Shown here piece after piece: positions 6,989-62,366 of a stretch of 64,000 nt of DNA; position 1 is the stretch's first letter, and every line of letters starts with the position of its first letter. The position numbers and the translations under genes were made by a program. A model generated the notes under the pieces. The model ran no database searches, was not told the DNA's origin, and saw only the letters and a list, made by a program, of their open reading frames with translations. Source of the DNA: Phoenix dactylifera (Eukaryota; Streptophyta; Magnoliopsida; Arecales; Arecaceae); NCBI RefSeq assembly GCF_009389715.1, contig NC_052396.1, positions 16,825,631 through 16,889,630 on the forward strand, in the 5' to 3' direction.

Positions 6989-7197
6989 TCCAGTACATCA
7001 GGGAGAAGGAAGATGCATCTCATGGCTTGGAAGGTGGTCTGTCAGCCAGTACATCATAGGAGTCTAGGGATCCAGTCTTTGGTGATGAGACGGGAGGTTC
7101 TAGCGGTGCAACATGCAGCCAGATTTATACTAGAGCCCGATTGCTTATGGACACTACAAAAGAAGCAGTTTTTCCCGGCGCTTTGCAGAGCTTTTAC

Positions 7198-7452
7198 CGA
7201 CGCTTATACGCGTCGAAAATTTTCCTCCCCACGCGACCAAAAGCGTGACGAAATCGTCGGGCAGGTGGGCGTGGAAGTTTTTCGTTCCGACGCGTGTCGT
7301 CAGCGTCGGCAGATAACCCGACGCTTTTAAACGCGTCGGCAAAGGTAATGTTTCCGACGCTTTTAAGCGTCGGTAGTTCTTGCATTACCGATGCTTTTGT
7401 CCTTCGGTGTACCTGTGCCGGGAGAGTTATTTCCGACGCTTTTAAGCGTCGG
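7198..7452. repeat. Left subterminal palindrome cluster of the CACTA element
   Basis: Five palindromes or near-palindromes built on CGACGC/GCGTCG lie here: 7198-7215, about 7289-7310, 7318-7339, 7354-7373 and 7433-7452. The last two are identical (CCGACGCTTTTAAGCGTCGG). In En/Spm elements, repeated subterminal motifs bind the TnpA protein and bring the ends together; here that role is inferred from position and repetition. Confidence 0.85.
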
Positions 7453-7922
7453 CAATAGCATTTTTTTTTTTTACAAATTCGTAGAAACAAATGTTAAACC
7501 TGTATACAAAATTCTTTGAGCCCTTCTTTGGCTTCTTTTTCGGAACCTGTATACATTAGTTCATAAATGCCCATTTTTTAAGTTCCATATAGCTGCATTG
7601 GAGATCAAAGACTGCAAGGAAAGAAAAGAAAAGCTGTTCATCCATTCCAGCTGAATTGATTTTGGAATCGTTCATGTAAAAATTTGATTCAATTATAAGA
7701 GAGATAACGTCAGTGAGAAGGAATTTTGATACGAATATTACCACAATCAACATAATGCCTTCCCTCTACAAATTCAACAACAACACAACATTGATTTCAT
7801 TTCCTTGGTATTGGTTACAGACAGACAATGTTAGAAGCCTAATAGTCATTAAATATGCCATAACGGCTGCAGCAACGGGTAATCATATGGAGCAAGAGGA
7901 TGCACAGTAGTTGCCAGGTTGC

Positions 7923-8086
7923 TTAACCATAGCTCAAGCGCGAGTCTGAAGGACGCATCTAGGTCTGGCGACGGGGAATCCCAATCTCACATGAATTAAC
8001 CCTTGCAGCAAAACGAAGAGAGCAAATTGACTCCCCGACAGACGATGATTCCGGGGAGATGTTGACCACATATTCATCCAAATATT
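7923..8086 (-). pseudogene. Captured last exon of a kinesin-14 motor gene
   Basis: The minus strand encodes [13 protein letters not shown], then [19 protein letters not shown], the conserved end of a C-terminal motor kinesin (kinesin-14, minus-end-directed microtubule motor). A stop codon TAG (7960-7962) interrupts after RRQT. The frame then continues MRPSDSRLSYG and a natural-looking TAA at 7923-7925. The family usually has Gln at that point, so a CAG-to-TAG change is the simplest reading. The fragment begins at about 8060-8086, directly after CDKB sequence. It is only the tail of the motor domain, so it has no motor activity. The 7500-7920 stretch downstream may be the kinesin 3' UTR; I cannot show this. 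Confidence 0.88.
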
Positions 8087-8583
8087 CATCCAACTGACCA
8101 CATATCAACTCCAGTTGAGTAGTGTGTGGTTCCCAGCAGAACCTCAGGAGCTCTATACCAAAGTGTGACAATCTACAAACAAAAAAGAATCTAATTCAGC
8201 AGAGACCAACTAACAAGCATAAGTAAACAAATGTATCATAGTCAGCCAACGCAGCTAAGAAAAATATCAAAACTAGGTTGAAGTTGATTTCTTGATAAGA
8301 AAAAGTTATAAAGGCTGATAATGCAAGACCTCGTGGGTGTAGCTCTTAAGAGGGATGGTAAAGGTTCTTCCTAGCCCAAGATCAGCAATCTTCAAGATGC
8401 CTTTCTCTTTGTCAACCAAAAGATTTTGAGGTTTCAAATCCCTGTTTTCATGGTATAACATCATATAGCAGATAATTCCTGCTTGACATATTTGGAAACC
8501 GAATCGAGATGAGAATACAACCTGTGAAGCACACCATGGCTATGACAATGGGCAACTCCTTTGGACAAATGATATAGAAAGCT
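8087..8583 (-). pseudogene. CDKB1: Captured three-exon fragment of a B-type cyclin-dependent kinase gene
   Basis: Three exons read on the minus strand with intact splice signals. Exon a (8583-8522) gives SFLYHLSKGVAHCHSHGVLH. Exon b (8441-8330) gives RDLKPQNLLVDKEKGILKI, then ADLGLGRTFTIPLKSYTHE. Exon c (8172-8087) gives [19 protein letters not shown], then TGVDMWSVG. The introns are 8521-8442 and 8329-8173, both GT...AG. The catalytic-loop HRD, the DLG and the activation-loop PLKSYTHE sequence are those of plant CDKB kinases, which drive G2/M entry. N-terminal lobe and C-terminal third are missing. Intron retention shows capture at the DNA level. The B1 rather than B2 assignment rests on the PLKSYTHE sequence and is less sure. 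Confidence 0.9.
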
Positions 8584-8589
8584 CTGCTT

Positions 8590-9290
8590 TGGAAAAAAAA
8601 AAATGAATCAGTCTGACATGCACAGATCCCAGAAGGGAGGAAAAAGAATAAAAAAATATTCATTGAAATTGCTGCAATGGCCGAAAATTAACTGAAACTC
8701 CAAAGAGGAAAACATAACCTTTAAAAGCTAGAATTTGTAAGAATTTCACCGCACATTGTTAAAAGTCATACCATGTTATGGCAGAGAACCAAAAATCTGG
8801 AGAAAAAGTATGCATTCACAAAACCCGGAATAGGGACGGCACCTCAAAGTTATTCCCATAAGAAACACTCATCTTTGTTTTTTTTTCTTTTTTTTTTAAA
8901 GAAAAAAAAATGATTGAATGGATCCCTCGTTTTCTCCTTCACTTGCCAAACTGAACTCATTCAACCACACTAGGAACTGGTGAAGTAAGATTTTGGAAAC
9001 CATGTTCCTGTCAAGTCAACATAGAACATACTAATTAAAGTCCTTTTCAAGATCTATACTTATCAAAGTTCTGGCATAATCGTATTTTGGAAATTGAGGT
9101 AAGTATCAAAAAAAAAAATTTAAAACAATCTAAAAACATTCATCTACGATGTATCAAGAGTCGACGGCATCATCATCTCTACGAGTAGATGAAGTATCAG
9201 CAACCTACAAGAAAAAAATACTTTAGAAACTAAAAATATGAAAGTCATCACGCTCATACAAGAATACATTATAATTATATAAAATATTCA
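8590..9290. other. CACTA internal non-coding stretch
   Basis: No coding region is recognised. It holds a poly(T)/poly(A) inverted pair near 8877-8911. It may include further intron sequence of the captured kinase gene upstream of exon a, but I see no additional CDKB exon. Confidence 0.4.
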
Positions 9291-9295
9291 AATAC

Positions 9296-9900
9296 TTATT
9301 TATGTACCGGAGGAGCAAGTCTCTGCAAAAAAGATGAAATATGGTCAAGCTGATCATGCAAAGATTGTATCTTCAACTCTTGGCTCTGCTTCAACTCCGC
9401 CATATCAGTCATATGACTCTGCCTCATCTCCTCTATCCTTGTCTCATATGACTGCTTTAACTGTGCCATCTCTGTCTTCAAACTACAAACCTCTGCAGTG
9501 CTAGTACCTTGTCTGGCATCTTGGGTATATCGGCTCACTGCAGACAGCTGAGTGGGGGTAACTCCGATACCGTAACCCCTCACGCGTCCATAACGTTCTG
9601 GGCCCATCAATTCTGCATAGACCTGAGCCTCGACGCGACTGGCTGCGTCGGATGATGATGACTCCCCGACGCGCTCTGAAATGAGATTTGTAGCTCTTTC
9701 CTATATCTCTCTCAAAAAAATAAACAGTCACATTAATAATTTAAAGAAAGTAAAATTAATAAAATAATTATGATCAAATAAAAAATGAATACATACAACT
9801 ATATCTCTCGACTCGTCCCGGACAAAGCTGCCATCTCGGTGAGTGTGGGTCATCTTATAAAACTCTACCTCACCAGGCTCCCTTCCATGCTCTACTATCT
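9296..9900 (-). pseudogene. 3' end of a TnpA-like (Transposase_24) gene of the CACTA element
   Basis: Two exons are visible. The upstream exon (about 9900-9796) encodes REPGEVEFYKMTHTHRDGS and FVRDESRDI. It is followed by a GT donor, and the AG acceptor lies near 9699. The second exon encodes ERATNLISERVGESSSSDAA, an MGPERYGRVRGYG block and a coiled-coil tail rich in Gln, Glu and Met, ending at 9296. This order (HTHRDGSFVD-like block, MGPE-R-GRVRGYG block, coiled coil) is typical of the C-terminus of plant En/Spm Transposase_24 proteins, which bind the subterminal repeats. The N-terminal part is absent: the exon abuts the truncated TNP2 frame, which implies an internal deletion. Confidence 0.8.
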
Positions 9901-11905
9901 ACACATACGGAAAGTATATTGCCAAACTATATATCATGATACGTGCTATAAGCTCTTGTCGTATGCTCATATCTTTCAAATCAAGACGCGCTTTCAAGTT
10001 GTCTTTAGTCTTTCCATCAAGATTTAACAATGTTCCAATCAAGTTATCACAAACATTCTTTTCTATGTGCATGACATCAAGATTATGTCGAAGAAGATTA
10101 TACTCCCAATAAGGTAAATCAAAAAAAATACTCCTTTTTTTCCATAACTGTTTATGTGTAGAAGCAACCAATGTGTCATCATCATTTTCCTGTCCATATG
10201 CATTGTCATCATTCTCAAAAAAGTTAGCATCCTCTAAAATCTCTGATATTAACCCTTCATTTAATGAGCTACCAACATCCTCCCTTCCCCTCTTCTTTAA
10301 ACATTTGGAGACCTTACCAGGTATGTAATTTGTGCCATGCATTTGTCTAAGAACTTCGGTACCAGTTGGTGGAATAGGGGCAGAACGCAACTCTGTGGTA
10401 CTATCAAACAGATCATTCTGAAATCGAAATGGATGGTTTGGTTCTAACCATCGACAATGGCCCATATAACAGAACTTTCCTCCATTTTTTAACCAATATG
10501 AATGGGTTGAATCTCCACAAGAAGGACATGCAATACGCCCCTTAGTGCTCCAACCGGATAAATTAGCATATGCAGGAAAATCATTAATAGTCCATATAAG
10601 AGCTGCACGCAATTTGAATGTTTGACCAGTAAAAGCATCAAATGCATCAATACCCTCCCATAACTGTTTCAATTCCTCTATTAAAGGCTGCAAAAAAACA
10701 TCAATATCATTACCTGGGCCCTTATCACCTGGAATAACCATTGACAAAATGAGTGAAGACTTTTTCATACACATCCATGGAGGTAAATTATATGAAACCA
10801 AAACAACCGGCCAAGTGCTGTATGTAGAACTCATAGTTCGAAAGGGATTAAACCCATCAGTAGCCAAACCCAGTCTGACACTGCGAGCATCAGAAGCAAA
10901 TTCGGGATGCCTATCATCAAATGCTTTCCATGCGGGACTATCCGCTGGGTGTCGTAACATTCCATCCTTTGTACGGCCTTCGTCATGCCATCTCATCGAG
11001 GAAGCCGTCTTCGGTGATGCAAACATCCTTTTCAATCTTGGTATAAGAGGAAAATACCTCAAAATTTTAGCCGGTTTTTTCTTAGTCGGTGCAGCATCCA
11101 CTTCAGTCAACGAATCATTCTCGTCATCTTTATGTTTTCCCCAACGTGGGGTTCCACATATTCGGCACGACTCTTGGTTCCTATTTTCACCACGATATAA
11201 AATGCAGTCATTCGGACAACTGTGTATCTTCTCATATCCAAGGTCCAACTCTTTTATCAGTTTTTTGGCTTCGTATGAAGATGATGGCAGAGTAACACCT
11301 TCCGGAAATGCATCTTTTAATAATTGAAGAAGCATGGTAAAAGACTTGCTGGACCACCCATTCAAATATTTCAAATGTAATAAATGCAGAAGAAAAGAAA
11401 TCTTCGTAAAATTCTTACAACCCGGATACAGTTCTTGATCACAATCTTTCACCAAGTTATCATAATGAGCTGTGTCATTAGCATGTATAGATTCCTCAAC
11501 ATGCATGGACTGATCAATAACTGCACGCTCATCTTCTCCTACAGTTCTGATATTATGTCCAAGAGCATCTCTAAGTAGGCCCCTTATATCATCTTCTTCT
11601 ACAGAATTTTGTTCCGTGTCACTACATCCAAAATTGAAGGTGTCTTCTAGATCGGAGGGTTGGTTACATGAAGGTATGAACTCTCCATGGATTACCCATT
11701 CAGTATAACCCTTTAGAAAACCATTCCATACCAAATGTTCTTCAACAATTTTTGGATCAAGAGCAGAACCGTTTACACATTTTTGACATGGACATAAAAT
11801 CTTCCCGTTCATATTAGATTTCTCAAAAGCAAACTTAATGAAATTCTGAACTCCATCCAAATATTCAGTACTAGATCTTAACTTATTTATCCAACTTTTG
11901 TCCAT
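9899..11905 (-). pseudogene. CACTA transposase TNP2 (TnpD-like), C-terminally truncated
   Basis: A 668-residue intronless frame begins MDKSWI. Residues about 1-75 form the transposase-associated domain with the C-x-C-x2-C zinc cluster (CPCQKC). Residues about 160-560 form the TNP2 domain, including the DGFNPF block near residue 349, a GPGNDIDVFLQPL block and the CPSCGDST zinc site. The family continues for several hundred residues past the RLDLKDM block; here the frame drifts into unrelated sequence (MIYSLAIYFPYV) and stops at 9899, exactly where TnpA-like sequence begins. TNP2 cuts the CACTA ends. This copy is probably inactive because the tail is lost, although the upstream frame has no stop, suggesting recent activity. 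Confidence 0.9.
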
Positions 11906-13250
11906 TCTATTAGAATACCGATTGAACTGCAGTTTTTAAAAAAAAGATAAACAAAATTAAGTAAAATGCAACAGAAGAAGTATATTATGCAGCTGAATGG
12001 AATGAGAATGAGAAAGAGAAAGGTTACCACTCAGCAAGAAAATCTTAAGCATTTGTTGAAGGTCTTGCAGAGGTCTCATGATTTTCAACAAGAAAATAAA
12101 CACATTTGCAGCATGGATGTGAGGCAAGACGTGGTGCAACATGGCATGGTGTCATGTGAGATCTGGCACATCTAAAGGCCTCAAGCATGATTTTTGTTTC
12201 TTTTTTCTTTCTTGTTTGTTCATATTGTGCTTTCTCTCACTCAAAAAAGAGTGTTAAGTTTTCATATATAAACTAGCTTTGCATCAATAAGTAAATACAT
12301 GCAGCATCAAGATTTAATCATAGTAAATTATAAATGGGTGTTAAACCTTAAATTTCTTCTTCAACAAGTTCTTGCTCCAAAAATCTCCTTTTGCAAGCTT
12401 GTGCTCCAAAGCTGCTGGTGCTTTCTATGCAATTTCTTGACTCTCAGGTGCCCAAAAAGCTGCTGGCAGTTTTTTCACTAATACCAGTAACCTGTATGTG
12501 CAGTATCAACTTTTCAGCAGCCTAAGATTTTACATGTAATGTGACAGCAAATTGAATTAAAAAAGCTGTTACTGATGATCATGCAATCTATTATTTTCCT
12601 ACACATTACCAAAAGATTTGTACATTAGAACTAAAACAAGCAGGCTGAAAAAGACTGCAAACACATTGATGTCATCGGCATTTCAAGGTCAACATAAAGC
12701 AAAATCAGGTGGTTTCGGATTGCATCTCATACAGAGATATTTAGATCTTTTGCATAACTAACAAAAAAAATCAGGTTATATCCATCTGAACAATCAAGTT
12801 TAGGGAAACTTATTTAACTCAATGATATATGATAAAAAAATAGTAAATTTTAGGTTTAACTTTATCTTAATGAATGAGAATAAAGGAGGAAGAACCACTT
12901 ATGCATTTTATTAATTGTAATTCCAGCATCCGTTGCTTTCTCTATAGATCAGGAATTGGATACTTTCTGATATAGATGGGCATTTTACATTTCCAAAATC
13001 ACATTGGGCACACATATGCATCTGATAAATTCAAGAAAAGACCAAGCTTCAAAAATGATAAACTATAATTTCATCCATATATAATTATGTATACTTTGCA
13101 ACACCTTCAATTGAATATGCCAAGTATTGCAATCTTGAATACAAACCCAGGCAGCATGCTCTTAAGAGAGCAGATTTGCTATAATGACAACTCTAGACAT
13201 TACGCTTTACCAATGCTATGAATTATTTAAAAAACAAAAAAAAAAAAGTC
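11906..13250. other. CACTA internal non-coding stretch upstream of TNP2
   Basis: No gene is recognised. It is the 5' flank of the transposase gene on the minus strand and probably contains 5' UTR or intron sequence. Two imperfect copies of a TGCAGCATCAAGATT-like string occur, without clear meaning. Confidence 0.4.
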
Positions 13251-13289
13251 GAAGCCTTTAGAAGGTCAAAACCAAGTAATATAATTTTA

Positions 13290-13585
13290 CAATATCTACT
13301 GATCTTAATGAGAGCCAGAACAAGCAAAATTTAGACCACATTATAAGCTGATATATAACAGTCCAAGACCAGTGGCAAATAAGAGAGAGATGGGTCATAG
13401 ATTTCATTTTCATGCTTCCATAAAAGAAATCCCACTTAGGATCCCATTTTCCATGCGAGCGTCGAGCGACGACAATAGGTCTTCGGATCATAGGCACCAT
13501 GTCTCCTTCTTTGAACGATCTGGACCTGCTTATCGAAAGCCTGAGCCATGTATGAATGGTAGAACGATTCCATGAGAAATTTACA
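13290..13585 (-). pseudogene. Possible remnant of a Ty3/gypsy integrase C-terminus inside the CACTA element
   Basis: The minus strand encodes MAQAFDKQV, then after a one-base shift SFKEGDMVPMIRRPIVVARR, then KWDPKW. A second shift follows, to a frame with HENEIYD. This matches the order at the end of plant Ty3 polyproteins, where an A(Y/F)(N/D)K-V-R block precedes F-x-EGD-x-V and a KW(D/E)GP block. The expected GP is not preserved. The remnant carries several frame breaks. Confidence 0.45.
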
Positions 13586-14284
13586 GGTCTTTTACACAAG
13601 CAAAAAAAAATCCAATCTTATCATGCAAGTATATGTTCTATAAATTCAACCCTGGATAGTTGGAAAAAAGTTGAAAGATCATGGTTGCAGCTCTCAGGCA
13701 ACTAGGTGATCCATTAACCAATTACATGAAACTTAACTCTCCAAATATTTCTCGTTTTTTACGAAAACAAAGCATAACACAAGCAACAAACTGTAAACAC
13801 ATGAAATAAATATTTCTCGTTTTTTTTCAAAATGCAGAAACGAAGCCAAGATAAAAATTAATCCATCATCAATCAATAGAAAAGTTCGCAAAGACATATT
13901 CTCCAAATAACAACTACTGTAACTCCAAAGGGTTAAAAACAGAAACAAAAAAAACCGGAGAGAGGGAGAGAGAAGGAAACAGATAGAATTACTGATTGGT
14001 GCAAAACGGGGGGAGAAGCCCCTGAGATTAGAACTATCAACGCACATAGAGATCCCAATGCTCCAATAGCAGGGCCTCAAAAGATCAATTACAGAAGATC
14101 CCCCAACCCATTCTCTGTGCTGAGAAGAGGAGTGAGAAGCTCTGATTAACAGAGCATTCCTCAGGAAGAGAGAAAGTGACAGAGAACAGGAAGAGAATGC
14201 AAGCGAAGAGAGCAAACAAAAATATGAGATTGAAAGCATCAAGAATTCACCCCGAACGAGATAGAAAGATAGAACTAGAAGACG

Positions 14285-14475
14285 AAGTCAATTTACCAGG
14301 AAGTAGAGGAGCGCGACCTCGATCGCCCGCCGACGAGCTTTTCTCCGACGGCAAGCTAGCGATCAAGCCGGCGATTAAGACAGCAAGCCGATATCCGATC
14401 GGTAGAAGGAACGGGGACCCGACTAGGGAGACGCCGGCGGAGATCGAGACGGAGATCTCCGGATCGCCGGAGCCC
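14285..14475 (-). other. Possible GC-rich first exon of the CACTA transcript
   Basis: Read on the minus strand, this CpG-rich stretch stays open for about 60 codons after a stop (GSGDPEISVSISAGVSLVG and onward). It ends in a plausible donor (CTTCCTG followed by gtaaattg) near 14301. It has no ATG in that frame and no family resemblance that I recognise. It could be a 5' untranslated exon upstream of TNP2, or captured host sequence. Support is weak. Confidence 0.3.
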
Positions 14476-14810
14476 TAGCCGAGGAGGAGAGCGGTGCGTT
14501 AAAGCGAAAGGGTTCCGATAGCAGGGCACCAGATCGGAAAAGAGCTCTCGAGAGAAAATAACACTTAAATAAGCTCGATCAAGGCTTATACAAAAGAAGA
14601 GGAGAAGGAGCGTGTTGAGGAAGGAGGAGAAGGAGGAGAACAAGCGAGACGGAGGGAGAGAATGGAGTAGGAGAAACTACCTCGGGCGGAGCGCGCGTTG
14701 GGGTCGGTCGGTCGACGCCGGAGAGGAGGTAGGCCTTCTGGAACGTGGCCGTTGGCGTCAAGGAAGTCCGATTCGTGGCTTTCAGCCGCCGGAGAGGAGG
14801 GAGATGGGGG

Positions 14811-14858
14811 CAGCGCCGGAGACGAAGGCAAGGGCAGCGCCGGAGACGAAGGCAAGGG
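14811..14858. repeat. Two-copy 24-bp tandem repeat
   Basis: CAGCGCCGGAGACGAAGGCA plus AGGG occurs twice back to back (14811-14834 and 14835-14858), in the GC-rich right part of the CACTA element. Confidence 0.9.
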
Positions 14859-14925
14859 GTATCGGGAGTAGCTAGGGCAAGAATGCGGGCTTGGGGTCGG
14901 GCGCTGCGTATTAAGGGGGCCTTGG

Positions 14926-15072
14926 CGACGCTTATAAGCGTCGTTTTAGCCTCAAGTCTACGACGACGCGTTTAAGCGTCGTCCAATTCTTCAAATTTCC
15001 CACGCTCCCCAAAAGCGTCGGGAAAGGTTGGCGCGGGAGCAGGAAATGCCGACGCTTTCCCTTAGCGTCGGC
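14926..15072. repeat. Right subterminal palindrome cluster of the CACTA element
   Basis: Three CGACGC...GCGTCG palindromes lie at 14926-14943, 14964-14981 and 15048-15072, with further half-sites (AAGCGTCGG) between them and the terminal CACTA. They match the left cluster in motif but are fewer. Confidence 0.85.
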
Positions 15073-15108
15073 ATTTAAGCGTCGGCTTTTCACACTTTTA
15101 CTGTAGTG

Positions 15109-16543
15109 GGAGTGCCCTGTTGAGGGCTAAGTATGATGCTTATACGATGATGGGGGAGCTCCAAGCTGGTCGGCGATCGTCCTTCGTATGGAGGGAGGTC
15201 TGCACCCACATACCGCTGGTGCAGGCAGCGGTCCGGTGGGCAGTGGGGGATGGGCGTTCTATAGATGTCTTGGAGGACAGTTGGGTGCATGAGCAGGCTC
15301 TTAGCCGCGCGTCGACTTTTTTTGATCCTTTGAGGCTAGAGGGCCATCGGGTTAGCGATCTGATCGTTCCGAGCCAGGGCAGGTGGGATGAGGCATTGAT
15401 TCGGATGGTCTTTGGGAGGCAGTTGGCTGAGATGATCATGGCCATTCCACTTCCCGCGATGGACGTGGTAGATAGGTTGGTATGGGCAGCTACAGGCAGG
15501 CCGAGCGTACGTTTCACAGGCATCCGAGAGGCTATGGGAGGGAAGGCAGTGAGGCAGATGGATGGGAGGTGGATCTGGAGATTGCACATTCATCCCCGGG
15601 TGGCCATGTTTCTTTGGAAAGTGGCCTGGGGCTGCTTACCCATGAGGGGCGTGTTGGCCGGGAGGGGCATGGGGATCAGTCCGAGTTGTGCCTGGTGCTC
15701 GGAATGGGAGGAGTTCATCACTCATGTGCTGCTTAGTTATGATCAGGTAGTACAGATTTGGAGTTGTGCAGGATTGTTTTAGGGGCAGGTCAGCCGATCT
15801 GTGGACGACTTTTTACTTCGGTTGAGGGGAGCGGTGCGGCGACCACAGACGTTGGAGTGGGGGATTTGACTGGCCTATGTAGTATATCATATATGGTTAG
15901 ACAGAAATGCCAGAATTTTCGATGATAGACGGAAACCCCTGTGGCGTATTGTTGAGAGGGCCCACATCCAGACGGCTGAGATCATCAGAGCTACCTCACC
16001 GAGTTCATTTAGGATGGCTAGAGACATCTGGGACCCCCGCTCAGTAGCTTTAGCGTCAGCTTCAGTGCTCAGGTTTCTTCTTATCTCTTGAGAGTCCCCA
16101 CTCTTCGGCTACCTAAAGGTGAATTTCAATGGTAGCAGCCCATGAGTTGGTGGTGGGGCGGTGTAGATTTTATGATCAGAGGCCACGACTCACAGCTGAT
16201 TGCTGATGGTGGGCGACGGATCGATGGGTTCTTAGCTATAGGGATGGAGCTCAGGGCAGCATGGGAGGGGGTCTCCTATGCGAGACGGAGGTTAGGGGCC
16301 GAGCACATTATCTTGGAGGGTGGCTCGGCCACAGTGATCGATTGGATACAGGAGGAGGGATGGAGGGGGGATGGCAGTCCCTTGTTGTGCGACATCAGGT
16401 TGATGCTGAGAGATTGCAGTGCTTTTCAAATAGTGCACGTGTACCGGAAAGCGAATAGGGCCGCAGATTGGGTTGCATCTTACGTTGCGCAGCACTCTGG
16501 AGAGATACTTTGGCCGCACCGGGAGGCCCTCCCTCGCTTCTAA
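15109..16543 (+). pseudogene. LINE ORF2 C-terminal part (zf-RVT and RNase H), degenerate
   Basis: A first frame (15120-15782) encodes the region after reverse transcriptase: LRAKYD, WAVGDGRSIDVLEDSWV and the zf-RVT block HPRVAMFLWKVAWGCLP...CAWC. After a stop at about 15783 the linker continues with stops (WLDRNARIFDD near 15900). A second frame (16142-16543) carries the RNase H domain: GMELRAAWEGVSYA, a remnant of the LEGGSATVI motif (normally with a catalytic Asp, replaced by Gly here), and the conserved end HVYRKANRAADWVASYVAQH. An RNase H domain is found in one lineage of plant L1 elements. Several stops make it non-functional. Confidence 0.85.
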
Positions 16544-16628: not shown

Positions 16629-17070
16629 CTCAGTCTGCGGCCCTGTTCATCTCTAAATATACATGTACTGTCTGGAAGGTGTTATAGTTCGCCATCAACC
16701 ATAAGTTGTGCGGGGCAAAGAGTTCTCATCCCCCTTCGCCCTTTCTTCTGTATCCTCTCGATCATTATGATAGAGTTTTTTTTGAAAAAAATATGCGCAA
16801 TTTTAGTACATGTTTTGCATAAGCGATGCCCTCCCATGCTCTGATTCTTTGACGATCCACGTTACCGCGGAGAGTTTATTCTCATGGATAAATTATCGAT
16901 GGTGCAGCGTCGTCGGATGAACCATTTGATTGCGTAGCATTGAGAGGGTGGTCGTATATGAAAAAACACGGAAAATATTATCCAATGCCGGAGAGAGAAG
17001 AGTACTGTAGCGGAACAAAAATCTTATGGGGCACGTACCATACTAGATCGTATGGTACGCGCTCCTACTT
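16629..17070. other. Intergenic spacer between the split LINE and the long-TIR element
   Basis: No gene is seen. A short imperfect palindrome, ACCATACTAGATCGTATGGT, lies at 17038-17057, just outside the left inverted repeat of the next element. Confidence 0.4.
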
Positions 17071-17072
17071 CG

Positions 17073-19095
17073 GCCACGTTAATATTTTATATGAATCTCA
17101 AAAAAGCAGTTTGCGATCTATTTAAGTCGGCAAACCTATCTTATGAGAGTTTGAGTGGGACGCAGCTTGGAGTTTGAGCTATAAGTAATAGCCTGGGAAT
17201 TTTAACGTCAGCAAACCTATTTAGATACCCGACATGTTTGACATTACCACCATGTTCATCTCGTTGGCCTTCCGATGACCACAGCTTTTCTTTTGTTTTT
17301 GGTACAAGATAGCTACAGTTGGTGCCTCGCAAGCTAAATTTTGAGAAAAAGTATGGGTATTTAACTAGAAGTCTTTACTTAACATAATTATTCATATTTC
17401 ATTTTTAAGTTTTAAAAGATATAGTGAACATATCTACTGGAGCTCACTAAGTTTTTATTTGCATTGCAGGTAATTGATTGGAAAGAGGTTGCCGCTTGGA
17501 TTATGCGTACCCTTTTTTGTTCATTAGAAACTTTTAGTTGTAAACATCTCTCCATTTTTGGCATTTGTGTATGCATTAATGTGAGATGAATATACCATTT
17601 TTTCTGCTAGGTGTGTATCATTTGGCCATACAGTGTGTACTGCTGAACACGCATATATTGATATACCTGAAAATATGTATTGAATCGATGCTTAGTATGT
17701 ATTAGTAAAGCTTAAAGTGTGCATCAAGAAGTCGATGAGTGTGCATCACTTAGTCATGTGGTGTGTACTGGTAAACACCAAGTTGTCGAAATTGTGTATC
17801 GATATAATTAAAGGTATGTATTGAAACTTGGATGACCATTCTGCTATGTATGTATCATTTTGCCATGCAGTGTGCACTGCTGAACACCATGATCTAAAAA
17901 GTATGTATTGATATACCTAAAGGTATGTATTGGATCGATGCTTAGTATGTATTAGTAAAGTTTAAAGTGTGTATCAAGAAGCTGATGAGTGTGTATCACT
18001 TAGCAATGTGGTGTGCACTGGTGAACACTAAGTTGTTGAAACTGTGTAACGATATAATTAAAGGTATGTATTAAAACTTAGATGGCCATTTTTCTAATGT
18101 GTATCATTTGGCCATGCAGTGTACACTGCTAAACACCATGATCTCGAAAGTATGTATCGATATGCTTAAAGATATGTATTAGATCGATGCTTAGTATGTA
18201 TTAGTAAAGCTTAAAGTGTGTATCAAGAAGCCGGTGAGTATATATCACTTAGTCATGTATTATGTATCAATTTACTAAAAGATAGATATTGGGATGTTGG
18301 ATGAATATATTACCAAATGTGTATCAACTAGCCGTATAGTGAATACCATATTTTTCAAACTGGTCATATAATGTATTACTTCAAAAGAGATGCAAAAGTT
18401 TTACATTCCTTGAAATAGATAACAAATTCAGTAAAAACCTAAGAAGAGTATTAACCAAATACTAACATTCTATTGTATATTGAAATTTATCCAACTTTAT
18501 AAAAAATTGAGAACCCTCTAATAAAAGGAAAGAAATATATAATAGAATATATGAAAGAAATAGACAGCAACGCAAGATATTTAAACAATGTATCCAAGTC
18601 TGTATCTGTTGTATGAGTTAAACTGCCGGACAATAAGAGATGTTTAGATGTTTGTATAATAATAAAATATAGATAAAATATAAATAACATCCCCCTCCCC
18701 CAACCGTGGAATGTCTCCTCACCCATCCTTGGAACGTCTTCTAAACTTGGTCGTTGCTTCTTTTCCACGTACCAAAAAAAATGTAGCTATCTTGTACCAA
18801 AAAAATAAAAGAAAAGCTATGGTCATCAGAAGCCCATTACTTCTTTTTCTCGTACAAAAAAAAAAGAACTCAAAGTTTAGCTGTGGTCATCGGAAGGCCA
18901 ACAGGATGAACATGGTGGTAATGTCAAACGTGCCAGGTATCTAAATAGATTTGCCGACATTAAAATTCCCAGGCTGTTACTTATATCTTACTCAAACTCC
19001 AAGCCGGGTCCCACTCAAACTCCCATAAAACAGGTTTGCCGACTTAAATACGTCGCAATCTATTTTTTTGACATTCGTGTAAAATATTAACGTGG
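17073..19095. mobile_element. Long-terminal-inverted-repeat element (Mutator-like or foldback type), non-coding
   Basis: The block 17073-17317 recurs inverted at 18782-19095. Shared landmarks, read inward, are CCACGTTAATATTTTA, ATTTAAGTCGGCAAACC, TTTGACATTACCACCATGTT, CCGATGACCACAGCTTT and GGTACAAGATAGCTACA. The right copy is longer because about 65 bp around the GTAC(C)AAAAAA...GCT(A/G)TGGTCATC(A/G)GAAG string is duplicated. Long inverted repeats around non-coding DNA suit a non-autonomous Mutator-like or foldback element. I find no 9-bp target duplication at the ends I can place, so class and exact ends are uncertain. Confidence 0.7.
17611..18290. repeat. Tandem repeat, about 240-249 bp period, under three copies, with ~120-bp internal dimer structure
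   Basis: GTATCATTT(G/T)GCCAT recurs at 17615, 17852 and 18101, and (G/A)GATCGATGCTTAGTATGTATTAG near 17692, 17932 and 18181. Each long unit contains two related halves, one starting GTGTATCATTTGGCCAT and one starting GTGTATCACTTAGTCATG. Both carry (G/A)CTG(C/G)T(G/A)AACAC and end in AAAGGTATGTATT. The array sits inside the long-inverted-repeat element. Confidence 0.9.
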
Positions 19096-19151
19096 CTGAA
19101 ACTCATATGATTTTTGTTTTTGAAAATTAGACAGCTTGGAGCCCACATTGT

Positions 19152-20190
19152 GCTTTTTTTTTTTTTGTTAAAAACATCATTACATATGGTTGTCACATGG
19201 GTACAGCCAGACAAATCAAAAGTAGATCTGCACACCTTTTTTTTTTATGAAGACAGTAATTCATATAGTTCTAACGTGAGCACAACCTGCCAAATCAGAA
19301 GAAAGCAAAAAGTACAAATGGGGCGGAAGCTCTACTGTGGATGTTTAGCGGAACTCTCCGGAATGCTATGCAACATAGGAAGCGACCCAGTCTACTACCC
19401 TGTTTGCCTTTCGGAAAACGTGTACAGCCTGAAACTCATCCATCTCTATAGCCAACCGGCAAGTCTCCCAAATAAGTGGGTGACCATCTCTGTATCTATC
19501 CGCACCCCGGATCCAAGCGATAACAATAGAAGAGTCCCCCTCAAGGTACACCCGTCCGACCCCGAGCACCCGTCTCGCATAAGATATGCCGACCCAGGCT
19601 GCCCACAGCTCTGCTCCAGCAATAGTGAGCCTGGTGGGAAGGCAGCCCCAGGCCATCTTCCAAATAAAGAGCGCCACCCGCGGGTGAATCCGCATCCGCC
19701 AAATCTATCCTCCCTCAATCCATCTAGCTAGCTCCCCACTGAAAAGAGCCTGTAGATCCCTAGCTCGCACCTGTGATCGGCCCGACGGCGCCTAGACCAA
19801 CCTGTCAAACTCCCCCTGCAATGGCACCGGGAGACCCAAAATCATCTCTGCCAACAGTACCCTAAACACCTCTCGAACCAACCCCCTCCCTCCACCTGCT
19901 CTCCTCTGGGTTCAACAGGTCATTGACCCTCTGGCCCACTAAGCGCACCGAGTCCACCATGGTCGGCATACGGCTGATCGGCACTGCGGTCACCCAACAG
20001 TCCTCCAAGACATCAATGGAGCGGCCATCACCAATAGCCCATCTAATCTCCGATAGGACCACCCCTGCTCTGGCACACATGTCCCTCCACACCGGAGAGT
20101 AGTGGCGGGCAGCTCTCACTGGCACCAAATCCCCATACTTGGCCCTCATCAGTGAGGACCACATACTATCCGGCTCCATGACATATCCAG
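19152..20190 (-). mobile_element. Truncated, internally deleted LINE
   Basis: The minus strand encodes YVMEPDSMWSSLMRAKYGDL, WAIGDGRSIDVLEDCWV and NDLLNPEESRW (20190-19870), then HPRVALFIWKMAWGCLPTR joined directly to AGAELWAAWVGISYARRV. So the zf-RVT end and linker are deleted and RNase H follows at once (LEGDSSIVIAWI, HVFRKANRVVDWVASYVA). The 3' end carries an A-tail, seen as T-runs at 19237-19247. A second poly(A)-ended copy of the last ~75 bp follows at 19152-19236. Its right edge lies only about 45 bp before the P450 start codon. Confidence 0.82.
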
Positions 20191-20234
20191 GCACACCTTT
20201 GGCGGACGTCGTCCGGATGAGTTTGAGGCCTAAA

Positions 20235-21752
20235 ATGGAGGTGTCCTTCTACTTCCTCTCCTCCTCCTGCCTCTTCCTCTTCTGCATCCTCGCCTCCGCT
20301 CTTCTCCTCCTCTTCAAAAAACCCTCGTCGCCCACAATCCTCCAGAGCTACCCTCTCATCGGCACCCTCCCTCACTTCATCAAGAACTGCAACCGCGTGC
20401 TCGAGTGGTCGACGGAGCTCCTCGCCGCCTCCCCCACCGCCACCGTCACCGTCGCGCCCATGGTCTTCACGGCCAACCCGTCTAACGTGGAGCACGTGCT
20501 CAAGACCAACTTCGACAACTACCCCAAGGGCGGCAGCATCGTGTCCGCCCTCCACGACTTCCTCGGTCGCGGCATCTTCATCTCCAACGGCGAGCAGTGG
20601 AAGGTCCAGCGCAAGACCGCCAGTTTCGAGTTCAACACCAAGTCCCTCCGCGCCTTCGTCCTCCACGCCGTCCGCCGCGAGGCCGTCGGCCGGCTCGTAC
20701 CCTTGTTAAGACGCGCCAGCCGCAGCGGCGAGGTCGTCGACCTCCAGGACGTCTTCGAGCGCTTCGCCTTCGATAACATCTGCAGCCTGGTGTTCGACCA
20801 GGACCCCAGCTGCCTTCTTGGGGGTAACGAAGAAGGCGAGAGGTTCTTCCACGCCTTCGACGAGGCCGCCCACCTGTGCATCGACAGGGCGAAGCAGGCC
20901 CTGCCGTTGGTCTGGAAGCTCAAGAAATGGCTCGACGTCGGATCGGAGAGGCGGCTACGGGAGTCGATGTCGACCGTCCATGAGTTCGTCGACATGTTCA
21001 TCTATCTGAAACGAAGGCGCGGCGCCGGCGATGGCGGAGATGACGATCTCCTCTCTCGCTTCGTCAAGAACGGCGAACAGTCCGACGAGTTCCTCCGCGA
21101 CTTCCTGATAAGCGTCGTGCTCGCCGGGCGAGACACGACGCCGGCAGCCATCACCTGGTTCTTCTGGGAACTGTCGTCGAGACCGGACGTCGTGGAGGCG
21201 ATCCGGGAGGAGCTCCGGTCAATCCGGTCGAAGCAGGGAGAAAAGCGCACGGACGAGGTGTTCGCGCTGGAGGAGCTGAGGGGCATGCACTATCTCCATG
21301 CGGCAATTTCAGAGTCGCTGCGGCTGCATCCGGCGGTACCGCTGCTGCCGAGGGTGTGCGAGAGGGATGACAAGCTACCGGACGGGACGAAGGTGTGCAA
21401 GGGGTGGACGGTGATGTACAACTCGTACGCGATGGGGAGAGATGAAGGGATATGGGGGGAGGACTGCAAGGAGTTCAGGCCGGAGAGGTGGCTGGAGGAA
21501 GGGGAGTTCCAGGCGGTGAGCGCTTTCCGGTACCCGGTGTTCCATGCTGGCCCGAGGATGTGCCTGGGGAAGGACATGGCGGTGATACAGATGAAGGCAC
21601 TCACGGCGATCATTCTGGAGGGGTTCGAGATGGAGCTGGTGGAGGAGCGGGGGAAGCACCAGCTCTCGGTGTCGATGAGGATGGAAGGAGGGCTGCCCAT
21701 GAGGTTTAGAGAACGGCAAGCGGGAACCAAGGCGTTTAATTTGATCAAATAA
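20235..21752 (+). CDS. Cytochrome P450, CYP94-type fatty-acid/oxylipin omega-hydroxylase
   Basis: An intronless frame gives 505 residues from the ATG at 20235. I chose this start because the protein then opens with a hydrophobic ER anchor (residues 4-27), followed by KKPSSP; an in-frame ATG at 20139 would add LINE-derived residues. Visible motifs: FEFNTKSL at 131-138, characteristic of CYP94; the I-helix AGRDTT at 297-302; ExxR (E360-R363); PERW at 416-419; and the haem loop FHAGPRMCLG with Cys443. CYP94 enzymes are ER-bound mono-oxygenases that hydroxylate the omega end of fatty acids or jasmonoyl-isoleucine. The FRYPVFHAGPRMCLGKDM stretch looks closest to CYP94D, but the subfamily and substrate are not settled. 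The frame is intact with all key residues. It is flanked by a LINE 5' and a copia element 350 bp 3'. Confidence 0.95.
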   Translation: MEVSFYFLSSSCLFLFCILASALLLLFKKPSSPTILQSYPLIGTLPHFIKNCNRVLEWSTELLAASPTATVTVAPMVFTANPSNVEHVLKTNFDNYPKGGSIVSALHDFLGRGIFISNGEQWKVQRKTASFEFNTKSLRAFVLHAVRREAVGRLVPLLRRASRSGEVVDLQDVFERFAFDNICSLVFDQDPSCLLGGNEEGERFFHAFDEAAHLCIDRAKQALPLVWKLKKWLDVGSERRLRESMSTVHEFVDMFIYLKRRRGAGDGGDDDLLSRFVKNGEQSDEFLRDFLISVVLAGRDTTPAAITWFFWELSSRPDVVEAIREELRSIRSKQGEKRTDEVFALEELRGMHYLHAAISESLRLHPAVPLLPRVCERDDKLPDGTKVCKGWTVMYNSYAMGRDEGIWGEDCKEFRPERWLEEGEFQAVSAFRYPVFHAGPRMCLGKDMAVIQMKALTAIILEGFEMELVEERGKHQLSVSMRMEGGLPMRFRERQAGTKAFNLIK

Positions 21753-22309: not shown

Positions 22310-25300
22310 TCAAGATGGAGCATGAATATTGAGAATGCCCATCTTGCTAAGGAGTGGATCAAGCTGTGCAGCTCCAAGGGGTTTGGTGAGCACGTCTGCC
22401 AATTGGTCATTGGTTGAGACATGAAGAGTCTTGATGAGGCCAGCAGTGAGTCGTTCTCGGATGAAGTGGCAATCAACCTCGATATGTTTGGTTCGTTCAT
22501 GATATACAGGATTAGAAGCTATATGTATCGCAGCCAAACTATCACAAAATAACAATGCAGGCTGCTGATGGGGAATGGCAAGCTCCTTGAGTAATTGAAG
22601 GAGCCAGACAATTTCTGCAGAAGTAGTGGCCATTGCACGATACTCGGCCTCTGCTGAAGACCGAGAGACAGTGTGTTGCTTCTTGGATTTCCAAGAAATG
22701 AGAGATTCACCAAGGAATATGCATTGCCAGTAACTGAGCGACGGGTATCTGGACATCCAGCCCAGTCAGAATCTGAAAAAGCTTTCAGATGCAGAGGAGA
22801 CTTGCTGGGAAAAAATAAGCCCTGTGTCGGGGCCTTCTTGATGTAGCGTAGCACCCGAGTGACTGCATCTAAGTGGGGCTTACGAGGTTTGTCCATAAAC
22901 TGGCTAAGAGTTTGAGCTGCATAAGATAAATCTGGCCGTGTAGTTGTGAGATATAGCAAACGCCCAATAAGCCTTCTATAATGAGTGACATCCTGAATTT
23001 CTTCTCCGACATCTTTAGAAAGTTTCAGCTTTGGATCAAGAGGGCATGCAGCAGGTTTGGCAGCAAGTAAACCTGTCTCTTCAAGAAGCTCTAAGGCATA
23101 TTTCCGCTGGCAGATGGTGATTCCTTGTGCGGATCGAGCTACTTCAAGGCCTAAAAAATATTTTAGAGGCCCCAAGTCTTTGAGCTTGAACTGCCTATGG
23201 AGGAATGCAACAAATTCATCTACTTGTGCTGCATTGTTGGTGAAAAGAATTATATCATCGACATAAATCAAAAGCCCGACAAAGAAAGTGCCACTATTGC
23301 GAATGAACATAGAACTGTCAGCTGCGGATTGTAAAAAACCATGAGACAGCAATGTTGAGGAAAACTTGGAGAACCATTGCCTTGATGCCTGTTTTAATCC
23401 ATACAGTGATTTATGTAGCTTTAAAACCTGTGAAGGATTTGTGGATTGAAAACCTGGTGGCAAGCTCACGTAAACTTCTTCATCCAACTCCCCGTGAAGA
23501 AAAGCATTGTTCATGTCAAGTTGGTGTAAATGCCAGTTCAAAGATGATGCCAAAGCCAATACAGTTCTGATCGTCACCATTTTGACAACCGGAGAGAATG
23601 TTTCCAAATAGTCCAGCCCTTCCGTTTGAGTGTAGCCTTTAGCTACAAGGCGGGCCTTAAATCTCTCTATGCTCCCATCTGCATGATGCTTCACTTTATA
23701 TACCCATTTACAGCCAACTGTTGATTTTCCAGCTGGTAATTCACTTAATGACCAAGTCTTGTTCTCTTCAAGAGCTTGAATCTCAAGCCTCATTGCCTCT
23801 TGCCACTCGGGTAACTGAGAAGCCTGCGCAAAAGTTTTTGGTTCGAGATGTGTAGAGATAGCAAAGGCATGTGCTTTGTGAGATGCAGAGAGCCTATGAT
23901 ATGAGAGAACTGAATGAAGAGGAAATTTTATACCTGTAGCCGCAGAAAGATCCTTGGAGGAGGTAGCTAAGTGGCAGTGGTAATCAGCAAGATAGCTGGG
24001 TTGTCTTCTGACTCTCTCGGATCGCCTAAGGATTGTGGGAGATGCTGGAGAGTCAGGTAACAAAGAAGATTCAGATGAAAGAGAATCTGCATCTGGGTTT
24101 TCAGTGGAAGTGTGAGTCTGTGTTGAAGTATTTTCTGGAGGAATTGTAGCTGGGGAAGAAGGTACTGATGTATCAACAGTTACAGGGGAAGGCATGATAT
24201 GTGTAGGAGTATGAGAGGTATCGGACATGAAGAACAAGTGAGAGTTATCCGGAGCATATGGAAAGATATGCTCATGGAAGACCACATCTCTAGATACAAA
24301 CACCGAATGATTATGCAGATCATAAAGACGATAACCTTTTGTTCCATATGGATATCCAATGAATATGCAGGTCCGAGCCCTAGCGTCAAATTTTTTCCTG
24401 TCATGAGCTAAGGTGGATGCATAGCAAAGACATCCAAAAACCCGCATGTGATCATAGGTTGGTGGAGATGAAAATAATAGTTCATGCGGTGTTTTGCCGT
24501 TTAAAACTTTGGAAGGAGTTCTGTTGATGATGTATGCTGCGGTTAAAACACAGTCCCCCCAGAATTTTATAGGCAGAGAGGCTTGAAACTTAAGAGCTCT
24601 AGCCACCGTAAGAAGATGTCTATGTTTCCATTCTACGACTGAGTTTTGTTGTGGAGTGGCTACACATGTTAACTGGTGGATTATCCCATGGCTTTGAAAA
24701 AAGTCTTTCATGATGAATTCAGTTCCATTGTCTGTCCTAATGGCCTTTATTTTGCGATTGAATTGTGTCTGCACCAGCATGCTAAAATTGTGAAAGATTT
24801 GTTCTGTTTGGGACTTATGGTTCATTAAATATAACCATGTGCTTCGTGTGAAGTCATCAACAATGGTAAGAAAATAGCATGAACCATCTCTTGCAGGAAT
24901 GGGATATGGTCCCCAAACATCACTGTGAATTAATTCAAATGGGGATTTAGTACATATCATGCTGGAGGAAAAAGGTAACCGAGTGTGTTTAGCCAAAGGA
25001 CATATTGGGCAGACATGTGTAGAACTAAAATTCATAGCAGAATCAATGTTGTGTAACATATGAAGTTTTGGAAAGGATAAATGACCGAGGCGATAATGCC
25101 AAAGGTCTACAGTAGAAAATTTTGTTAGGTAGCTAAAAGAGGGAGGTAAAGCAGAACAATTCTTAGTTAAACTTTGAGAGCCAGGCGCCTGTAGCTGATA
25201 AAGTCCGCCGACTACGCTACCCCGACCAATTATCCTCCTGCTGCATAGGTCCTGAATATGACATGAAGAAGATTCAAATGTAAGTTGGCAATTAAGGTCA

Positions 25301-25608
25301 GAGGCAAGTGTTTGAACGGAGAGTAGATTAAAATGAAAAGTTGGGACACATAAGACATTTTTTAATAAGAGGTGACTTGTTAATCTAACACTGCCTATGT
25401 GTGTCACTTGCACAGTTTGTCCAGTTGGAAGTTGAACTCTGGAATTCAGTTGTGCATTGACATGAGTTAAGAAAGAGACATCTGATACGATATGATCGGA
25501 AGCACCCGTATCAATGATCCAGGCACCATTCGAGAAACCATTTTGTGAAGATAAAACCAAAGGTATGATATGAGAACTCTCAGAAGAGAAAGAAGGAAGA
25601 ACAGCCAC
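22310..25608 (-). pseudogene. Copia pol polyprotein (protease, integrase, RT, RNase H), frameshifted near its end
   Basis: The main frame (25608-22519) encodes, in order: an aspartic protease (WIIDTGASDHIV near residue 35); GAG-pre-integrase with the HHCC zinc site (HLSFPKLHML...CPICPLAKH); the integrase core (DVWGPYPIPA, DDFTRSTWLY, IRTDNGTEF and a downstream Glu in NSVVEW); and copia RT (YGLKQASRQWF and YVDDII). In the RNase H region, after DTRRSVTG, the frame shifts by one base (about 22735). The conserved continuation ([20 protein letters not shown], then the end near 22310) is in the neighbouring frame. The protease-to-integrase order confirms Ty1/copia. With the shift and no gag, it is unlikely to act alone. 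Confidence 0.93.
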
Positions 25609-27216: not shown

Positions 27217-28210
27217 CTAGTAATCTTCTGGAGCTAAGGGCTGGTGAGCATGGGGATGGGGTGTCTCCGTGGGGATAACAAGGTACTCATACATAACCCC
27301 TGCAATTCCAGCACCCACAAAAGGCCCAAGCCAGTACACCCAGTGGCGCCTCCACCGCCAGCCGACGAGCGCCGGACCAAAAGCCCGTGCCGGGTTCATG
27401 GAGGCACCGTCGAACGGACCGCCGGCGAGGATGTTAGCTCCGACGACAAAGCCAATGGCAAGTGGTGCGATGGTGCCGAGATGGCCTCTCTTGGGGTCGA
27501 TCGCCGTGGCATAGACGGTGTAGACAAGCCCGAACGTCATCACGATCTCGAGCAGTACTGCATGCCACTCGCCGATGCCCGATCCCAGCGAGAACCCTAA
27601 CGGCCTCTGCATGGTCCCAAAATACACCACAGGACGTCATTTTAGCTCCGGCACCAACCCGTACAGGATGATACGTAGATAGATGACATTCGCATGCAAT
27701 TAAGTTTGAAGCTGGAAGTCCATTACCATGCCTCCTGTTGCGACCCTTAGTAAGAGTGAAGCTACGATTGCACCGAGGAGCTGGGCCACCCAGTAGCAGA
27801 CGGCATGGATGACGGAGATCCGGCCGCCAACGAGGGCACCGAAGGTGACTGCCGGATTGATGTGGCCGCCGGAGATGTTGAAGGCGATGGAGACCGCAAC
27901 GAAGAGGGCCAACGCATGGGCTATGGCAACCATCACAAGGCCGCTAGCGGTGGAGGTGTCCTTGTACAGCTTCTCTGCAACCAAGTACCTAAAGTTGGCG
28001 ACCATGCATGCGAGTGCAACCATATCTACGTGCAAATGGACATGGATGCAGTTTAGTTAAAAAATTTGGTGTACCGAGAGAGAGGACGGAGCCTTCGCCG
28101 GCGAATACGAAGATGGCGGTGCCGATGAACTCGGAGAGAGCGGCGCGCATGGTGTCAGGTTGGACGGCATCTTCGGTCCGGCCGAAGGCGAATCGAGGGC
28201 GAGGGGGCAT
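27217..28210 (-). CDS. TIP3: Tonoplast intrinsic protein, TIP3 (seed alpha-TIP) type
   Basis: Three exons (28210-28075, 27974-27727, 27606-27217) with GT...AG introns give 257 residues, the normal length. Both half-helix motifs are intact: NPA at 85-87 and NPA at 199-201, the latter followed by Arg202 of the selectivity filter. His65 sits where TIPs carry the helix-2 filter histidine. The start [15 protein letters not shown] and the His/Pro-rich tail ending HQPLAPEDY are marks of TIP3, the aquaporin of seed protein-storage vacuoles, which conducts water and small neutral solutes across the tonoplast. Six hydrophobic helices are evident. Exon GC content is high against an AT-rich intron. TIP3 genes are normally seed-specific and ABA-responsive; I did not identify the cis elements here. 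Confidence 0.96.
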
Positions 28211-33797: not shown

Positions 33798-33854
33798 GTC
33801 GCACAATCTCCGAGTCAGCCTGCAGGAAACTTGGGGTCTCTTCATCGAAATCAA

Positions 33855-60964: not shown

Positions 60965-62366
60965 GGCCATGTTTGGGGGAGCTTTTGGAGGGCCAGAAAG
61001 CATTTTCTGGCCCTCCAAAAGTACTTTTAGATGAAAAACTGTGTTTGGTAAATTTTTTAAAAAGCTGTTTCAGCTTTTGCGGGAAGCTGAAAACAGCTTT
61101 TAGGAGAAAGCTCCAATTTGAAGCTTTTGGGAGGAAGCTGTTTCAGTTTTTTCGGAAAGCTGTATTTTTGACAAAAATACCCATATTAAAATAACATAAT
61201 TACATAGTTTGTCCTTTTATAAATCTAAAAATCTGCTGTAGCTAAGAACCCTATCCGTCAGACTCCCTTCCATAAGAAAAGGTATTTTTCTTTTCAATTT
61301 TTGTATGCATCTCTTGAACCACATTTTAGAAGAAAAAAATTTTAATCCTTTTCCATACCTTCCAAAATCAATCTATTGTTTTTTTTTTATCATCAACCTC
61401 GCGGCCCGCGCTGAGGTTCTCCTCGAGCGTGGACCACGAAGAAGAGCCCCTGGACAGTGAAAAATTATTTTATGGGAAACTATGGAAAATTATTATAGAA
61501 AATTATTTTATACTAATAATTATAATATTTTATACCTTTATTTTTGTATTATACTATAAATATAATATCATATTATATTATATCATAATACATTAATATG
61601 TTATATTAAATAATTATTATAGAAAATTAATTTATACTAATAGTTATAATATTTTATACCTTTATTATTGTATTATACTATAAATATTATATTATATTAC
61701 ATTACATTATAATACATCAATATGTTATTTTAAATAATTTAATATTATGTTATATTATGGAAAATTAATGTATAATAATAATTATAATATTTTATACCTT
61801 TATTATTGTATTATACTATAAATATTGTATTATATTACATTACATTATAATACATTAATATGTTATTTTAAATAATTTAATATTATGTTATATTATGAAA
61901 AATTAATTTATACTAACAATTATAATAATTTATACTTTTATTATTGTATTATACTATAAATATAATATATATTACATTATATCATAATACATTAATATGT
62001 TATGTTAAATAATTTAATATTATGTTATATTACCAAATATTAATTTACTCTAATAATTATATTACTATTATGCTATATTAACATAATATTATTTTATATT
62101 ACAATAATATTATACTATATCGCATATTTATGTATTAATTTATGTTATGTTTTATTATGTTATGTTGTATAATACTATGCAATGTCCTTTATGGTAATTT
62201 TGTTATACAAAAGTACTTTCTCAGTTTGTTTACCAAACACAAAATAAAGTACCACAGCACTTTACGAATGTAGTTACCAAACAGCAAACAGCTTTTTATA
62301 ACAGCTCTACTTCAGACAGCTCTACTTCCAACAGCTCTACTACCAACAGCTCCCCCAAACAGGGCC
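60965..62366. mobile_element. Tourist-like (PIF/Harbinger) non-autonomous element, 1.4 kb
   Basis: The left end GGCCATGTTTGGGGGAGCTT is the inverse of the right end (AGCTCCCCCAAACAGGGCC). Both are flanked by TTA (60962-60964 and 62367-62369), the 3-bp TTA/TAA duplication typical of PIF/Harbinger elements. Further inward, AGCTTTT/AAAAGCT and ACAGCT/AGCTGT strings recur at both ends. The interior is AT-rich with a tandem array and no transposase, so it would need a helper. A hAT origin is less likely because the duplication is 3 bp rather than 8. Confidence 0.85.
61497..62037. repeat. Four-copy AT-rich tandem repeat (period 124-138 bp) inside the Tourist-like element
   Basis: TATACCTTTATT(A/T)TTGTATTA (one copy TATACTTTTATT) recurs at 61531, 61655, 61793 and 61931. 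Each copy is followed by CTATAAATAT and ATTAATATGTTAT. Copies two to four share the end TTTAATATTATGTTATATTA. Confidence 0.9.

Follow-up and report, generated by a model that had tools for sequence, protein, structure and literature searches.

Host DNA from three loci in a CACTA transposon of Phoenix dactylifera

A CACTA transposon in the genome of the date palm Phoenix dactylifera carries host DNA from three loci: an intron-containing piece of the cyclin-dependent kinase gene CDKB1, the 3' end of a kinesin-14 (KIN-14) gene, and a longer non-coding segment from upstream of a CHCH-like gene. We consider it probable that the element captured these pieces separately and through break repair, the CHCH segment at first, CDKB1 next or at about that time and KIN-14 last, and that they are passenger cargo. 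The element lies in a window of 64,000 nucleotides (C5:16825631-16889630 of the 773-Mb Phoenix dactylifera assembly that was searched), and bare position numbers refer to this window.

The element and its copies

The element occupies positions 7152-15108 on the minus strand, as defined by its transposase, and is delimited by CACTACA/TGTAGTG ends and a target site duplication (TSD) GGA at 7149-7151 and 15109-15111. The insertion interrupts a LINE-type reading frame (zf-RVT), which is open across the joined flanks once the element and one GGA are removed. Diagnostic features of CACTA elements are present: ends starting with CACTA together with a 3-bp TSD (GGA in the window copy, ATT in the C208 copy), CGACGCTT-type subterminal short repeats close to both ends, and a tnp2-type transposase (Pfam PF02992, E 1.8e-96; PF13963, E 6.4e-25). 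The transposase reading frame (11905-9899, minus) belongs to a family-own internal part (8986-12038, minus), which also holds a Transposase_24 remnant (PF03004, E 5.6e-10). It is shorter than the frame of the C53 copy, with about 1.07 kb absent at 9950. A six-frame Pfam search of the parts flanking the transposase returned no domain above the cut-off beyond kinase, kinesin and Transposase_24; sub-threshold matches include DUF1106 at E 0.016.

Sequence of the family itself also forms both ends. The 3' end with its subterminal CGACGCTT repeats (7152-7548, minus) is shared with uncaptured copies on C4, C53 and C686 at 89-95% identity, a match that stops at 7545-7548, and the 5' end (14571-15108, minus) is 97.0-97.6% identical to uncaptured copies on C4. 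The uncaptured relative C53 has about 4.1 kb of family-own DNA in the place of the KIN-14 and CDKB1 pieces.

The junction between CDKB1 and KIN-14 was found by whole-genome search in three elements, the window copy, C208 and C20, which were the only full-length matches among the 13 obtained with the 661-base query (7923-8583); the two donor loci each match their own half of the query only, at 99%. The flanks of the three insertions display no mutual similarity. C208 is a complete element of 5450 bp with TSD ATT, lacking a transposase match and any match to window positions 8877-12230. C20 keeps the left end, and its right side stops at the equivalent of position 14307; sequence corresponding to 14308-15108 was absent from the 10 kb containing this copy, and the next 8.5 kb gave only a 23-bp match of chance size. 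A fourth copy, C67, contains KIN-14 DNA only as far as about window position 7845, and its KIN-14 edge is the same but for one base. Apart from these four loci, no site has the exact 22-base terminus; seven further occurrences with one or two mismatches bring the total to 11, against three for a reversed control pattern. No element with CDKB1 alone or with the CHCH segment alone was found among the scored matches (40 of 281 candidates in one search and 40 of 47 in another). In the two family searches, 40 among 650 candidates and 40 among 944 were scored, which falls short of a family count. Changes private to a single copy are few (five in the window copy, nine in C20 and three in C208, of 3316 sites), which suggests a recent spread of the copies.

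Pieces of host genes whose parents remain intact elsewhere, together with a junction common to three separate insertions, correspond to a Pack-CACTA or transduplicate element mobilised with its cargo. Under the strict definition of Pack-CACTA, which requires the lack of a transposase, only C208 qualifies, while the window copy retains part of the transposase and is a transduplicating CACTA element. The sequence-only reading, which had recognised a CACTA element with captured host genes, is borne out by the ends, the TSD, the tnp2 transposase and the identity of the donors.

Several other features were observed in the window. Long inverted repeats at 17069-19100 (arms of 110-117 nt, 87-89% identity, about 1.6-1.8 kb apart) look like a foldback-type element, and between the arms lies a tandem repeat (17656-18252) with a 250-bp unit, present in 2.4 copies at 88%. 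An AT-rich satellite-like array with a period of 138 (about four copies, 88%) occupies 61491-62061, and on the minus strand 22522-25608 holds a long open frame for the polyprotein of a Copia-type retrotransposon (RVT_2, rve, Pol_BBD). Host-like sequences comprise a cytochrome P450 in a single open frame (20139-21752), a partial aquaporin (27217-27630) and a receptor-like kinase with LRR and kinase parts (31550-33854).

The captured pieces and their donors

The CDKB1 segment (8075-8977, minus) is 97.6% identical to C3:18611247-18612147 and has kept its introns. It includes exon A (8583-8522, minus), preceded by intron sequence, and exon B (8441-8330, minus), both with AG/GT splice edges, followed by the splice-edged exon C (8172-8075, minus), which is truncated by the junction with KIN-14. 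The splice sites are canonical in C208 and C20 as well, hence in all three copies. The spliced piece matches the Pfam domain Pkinase (E 1.3e-28) and is at most 96% identical to plant CDKB1-1 proteins, a value reached by those of Typha, oil palm and coconut (among the best 120 of 6069 matches). Judged by best match, the captured kinase is CDKB1, not CDKB2 or CDKA.

The KIN-14 segment (7554-8066, minus) is 99.2% identical to C12:1379949-1380462. It consists of the end of the last exon, encoding the kinesin-14 C-terminus (8066-7923, minus) with one stop gained inside, and of DNA downstream of the gene (7922-7554, minus). Palm KIN-14H proteins, at 94-96%, are the best among the matches listed for the product of 8066-7923, and Kar3 and Ncd are its best matches among solved structures; for so short a piece, the match to the Pfam kinesin domain is weak (E 0.001) and under the curated cut-off. 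Both captured stretches extend past 7923-8583 at the DNA level, with introns and 3' flank included, and their DNA identity to the donors excludes a chance resemblance. The observation of the sequence-only reading that three CDKB exons run into the last exon of a kinesin-14 on the strand of the transposase (11905-9899, minus) therefore agrees with the coordinates, splice sites and matches, the kinase being more exactly CDKB1. The search of the host genome that it had proposed led to the donors on C3 (97.6%) and C12 (99.2%) and to the same junction in C208 and C20, and neither a better match to another kinase or motor family nor an ordinary host gene with this adjacency was encountered.

In the 10 kb examined around each donor, a gene with conserved exons is found; the part covered is amino acids 1-272 of 303 of CDKB1 and 352-815 of 815 of KIN-14, where the match is to KIN-14H, and within it both genes appear intact. 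Paralogues on C12 (CDKB1) and C3 (KIN-14) are less similar to the captured pieces (80.3% and 83.8%, respectively). The CDKB piece is further tied to the C3 gene by a diagnostic residue, as both share the motif GRTFTIP, in contrast to GRAFTIP in the C12 paralogue. At eight of the 13 differences that the copies share against the C3 donor (L016 4248-5148), the C12 paralogue agrees with the element and the donor departs, so these changes probably occurred on the donor side. Either the present C3 gene or allele would have changed since capture, or the true donor allele differs from it; at these eight positions the element appears to preserve an older state of the CDKB1 gene. A piece of the transposon family at C3:18660952 is separated from the CDKB1 donor by about 49 kb, a distance not beyond chance given the abundance of the family.

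The third host segment, at 12039-14552, was found by a genome search with the C208 copy. It is non-coding, hence missed by the Pfam scan, and derives from upstream of LOC103696699, to which it is about 96% identical. Three parts, all on the minus strand, match C12:1483785-1489268 at 96-97%: part 1 (12039-12193) at 97.4% to L050 2786-2940, equivalent to C12:1483785-1483939, part 2 (12266-13739) at 96.6% to L050 5418-6892 and the GC-rich part 3 (13759-14552) at 96.2% to L050 7481-8269 of the same C12 locus. The capture amounts to about 2.4 kb in the window copy and exceeds the CDKB1 and KIN-14 pieces combined. A GT splice donor in part 3 is kept in the window copy and in C208, and the GC-rich end resembles a 5'UTR exon with the first intron after it; the orientation, exon 1 and intron of the CHCH gene are our inference from the sequence. 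A stretch of about 80 bp (12191-12270) at the internal gap of the capture (12194-12265) matches C2390, C2391, C7, C1, C18 and C55 at 94-100%; it is a short dispersed repeat, and the C20 copy has a corresponding region about 100 bp long.

The product of this third donor gene has 171 amino acids and is 100% identical to LOC103696699 of Phoenix dactylifera, the named relatives of which are a MICOS subunit mic25a-like protein, a copper ion binding protein and a CHCH-domain protein. Its Pfam matches are under the cut-off (DUF1690, E 1.4e-4; CHCH, E 0.68), a six-frame Pfam search of the donor locus gave nothing at E 0.01, and no coding sequence was found within the captured segment. The third cargo is unrelated to mitosis. 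Since it comes from upstream of a CHCH-like gene, the cargo does not follow a cell-division theme, and the earlier description of the element as holding two captured cell-division genes was incomplete, though both of these pieces are real.

Order and route of capture

Substitutions that all three copies share against the donor number 58 of 2005 sites in the CHCH segment, 13 of 799 in CDKB1 and 3 of 512 in KIN-14. The difference between CHCH and KIN-14 (P = 0.001 for all sites) implies that the KIN-14 piece is younger than the CHCH piece, and points to a stepwise capture in which CHCH preceded KIN-14. CDKB1 is intermediate (P = 0.12 against KIN-14 and 0.06 against CHCH, all sites), and its capture, presumably between the other two, cannot be placed firmly relative to either. 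With noncoding sites only, for which the exon limits used are off by a few bases, the values are P = 0.006 for CHCH against KIN-14, 0.044 for CDKB1 against CHCH and 0.32 for CDKB1 against KIN-14.

Filler copied into junctions is a recognised sign of break repair with template switching. At the KIN-14 edge (J1, 7544-7555) the filler is the 12-mer AACCTGTATACA, a copy of 7497-7508 that repeats family sequence 47 bp away. The junction of KIN-14 and CDKB1 (J2, 8063-8093) contains TGACCACATAT at 8063 and 8095 and ATATTCATCCAA at 8070 and 8082, which repeat CDKB1 or junction sequence at distances of 32 and 12 bp. The J1 and J2 fillers are common to all three copies, that of J2 being identical in all. 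Between CDKB1 and family sequence, a short filler (J3, 8978-8985) is identical in the window copy and C20. No template for the J3 and J6 fillers was found in the window, and J4 is a simple join present in one copy only. Exact non-simple 12-mers that recur within 50 bp have, inside the element, only the start positions 7318-7319, 7497, 8070 and 14808-14823; two of these four places are capture edges, and the others lie in subterminal repeats and in one 24-bp tandem repeat. In the whole window, 12-mers repeated within 50 bp start at 51 of 63,938 positions. We interpret the origin of the J1 and J2 fillers from adjacent sequence as an indication of break repair with template switching.

The most probable course of events is that the element took up DNA upstream of the CHCH-like gene on C12, then or about then the 0.9-kb CDKB1 piece from C3, and last the 0.5-kb piece of the KIN-14 gene 3' end from C12. 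The pieces would have been copied in during the repair of breaks inside the element, short template switches leaving copied filler at their edges, and about 4.1 kb of family-own DNA would have been replaced. The element, cargo included, then transposed to at least three sites.

We consider gap repair drawing on ectopic templates the most likely route, and its main rival is the tandem-insertion model described for Pack-CACTA in PMC13317346 and PMC8903248, in which two related elements insert near a donor and complementary terminal deletions yield a hybrid element trapping host DNA. Three such local events would be required here, an account that we regard as rather unlikely without dismissing it. 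It gains from the KIN-14 and CHCH donors being only 103-109 kb apart on C12, as the chance of any donor pair lying this close is 0.0008 for random placement in 773 Mb and 0.003 for an assumed gene space of 200 Mb. Such proximity is unlikely by chance and may speak for local capture, although the test is post hoc, made after seeing the data. The CDKB1 donor, however, is on another chromosome, and none of the 11 matches to the terminus (the exact 22 bases or up to two mismatches) lies near C12:1.38-1.49 Mb. Repaired junctions are predicted by tandem insertion as well, but template switching accounts better for copied fillers lying within 50 bp of the edges, even if the repair of deletions can also leave them. 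The adjacency taken alone might further suggest an ordinary host fusion gene, a retroposed copy or an assembly artefact. Retroposition is ruled out by the retained introns, and the same junction in three copies with dissimilar flanks, two of which have TSDs of their own, is not expected from local misassembly, so that this group of explanations deserves practically no credence.

Coding potential and relation to known elements

For the chimera described by the sequence-only reading, a fusion protein of CDKB and kinesin is excluded in the expected frame by the sequence of the copies. In each of the three copies, the spliced CDKB frame meets a TGA three codons before the end of the CDKB piece, and the frame of the kinesin is shifted by one relative to it. 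The kinesin part is also interrupted by another stop in the window copy and C20, and by a frameshift in C208. An open stretch does run across the junction, in the frame of the kinesin and not in that of CDKB, and CDKB1 and kinesin are thus not readable as one protein. The chimera is most likely a decaying passenger that yields at most a non-coding or spliced chimeric RNA, and a spliced non-coding RNA is possible given the intact splice sites and the precedent of the soybean element Tgm-Express1, in which exons captured by a CACTA element enter spliced transcripts.

An effect on the donors through small RNAs, as proposed by the sequence-only reading, is possible by sequence only, as many perfect 21-mers are shared between the window copy and the donor genes: 102 of 123 in the KIN-14 exon, 66 of 87 in exon B, 36 of 77 in exon C and 16 of 47 in exon A. 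A functional chimera, in which spliced RNA lowers CDKB1 and KIN-14 expression via small RNAs and the mitotic pair is kept by selection, would agree with these 21-mers, with the retention of splice sites in all three copies and with the sense orientation of all three pieces relative to the transposase. We nevertheless find it very unlikely in view of the stops and frame offset that preclude a CDKB-kinesin protein, the third cargo without a link to mitosis, and the ongoing decay evident from window-only changes in exon A and the frameshift in C208.

The earlier reading had regarded two functionally related genes side by side in one CACTA element as unusual, a view not upheld by reports of multi-locus capture in soybean, with a CDC2 fragment included (PMC1947982), and maize (PMC8903248). 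According to PMC1947982, the soybean CACTA element Tgm-Express1 holds pieces of five host genes, among them CDC2, and its captured exons are seen in spliced transcripts. The palm element resembles it in superfamily, in bearing pieces of several host genes, exons and introns alike, with usable splice sites, and in a CDK-family piece, here CDKB1. The plant and the cargo differ, and Tgm-Express1 is located in a flower-colour gene while the palm element is in a LINE; in contrast to the five genes and observed transcripts of Tgm-Express1, the palm element has three loci and a truncated transposase and is known here from DNA alone. For Pack-CACTA of Arabidopsis and maize, PMC8903248 likewise describes host DNA between CACTA termini, several loci and remobilised copies, with several distinct loci per element reported for most maize Pack-CACTA. 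Its Pack-TYPE definition relies on hits to coding genes and assigns transposase hits to autonomous elements, from which the window copy departs by its partial transposase, unlike C208. Multi-gene capture and chimeric cargo are also shared with Pack-MULE elements (PMC13317346 and PMC8903248), which belong to another superfamily, whereas the termini and transposase of the palm element are those of CACTA. Searches on oil palm and date palm CACTA, on CACTA with kinesin, CDK or gene fragments and on Phoenix gene capture, a scope outside which most subscription papers fall, found no published report of the palm element or its cargo.

The palm element is a well-resolved example of known transposon gene shuffling and not a working fusion gene. 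Annotation should accordingly not name the CDKB1/KIN-14 chimera a kinase-kinesin gene, and the case cautions against assuming a functional reason wherever mitotic genes lie next to each other in an element. How host DNA enters CACTA elements is a matter of continuing debate, and this case offers intact donors, uncaptured relatives, identical junctions across copies, readable filler and three unequal divergences in one lineage. A bolder view, which we think unlikely, is that the element may be a dated travel record, with age-ordered pieces from its chromosomal neighbourhood and the C12 donors marking a former residence, and at the same time a composite transcription unit built from host start and stop regions (5' upstream DNA, 3' terminal exon and downstream DNA, all in sense). 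Should the locality of the two donors extend to other elements, the places where an element once lived could be traced from how old its captured pieces are and where they come from.
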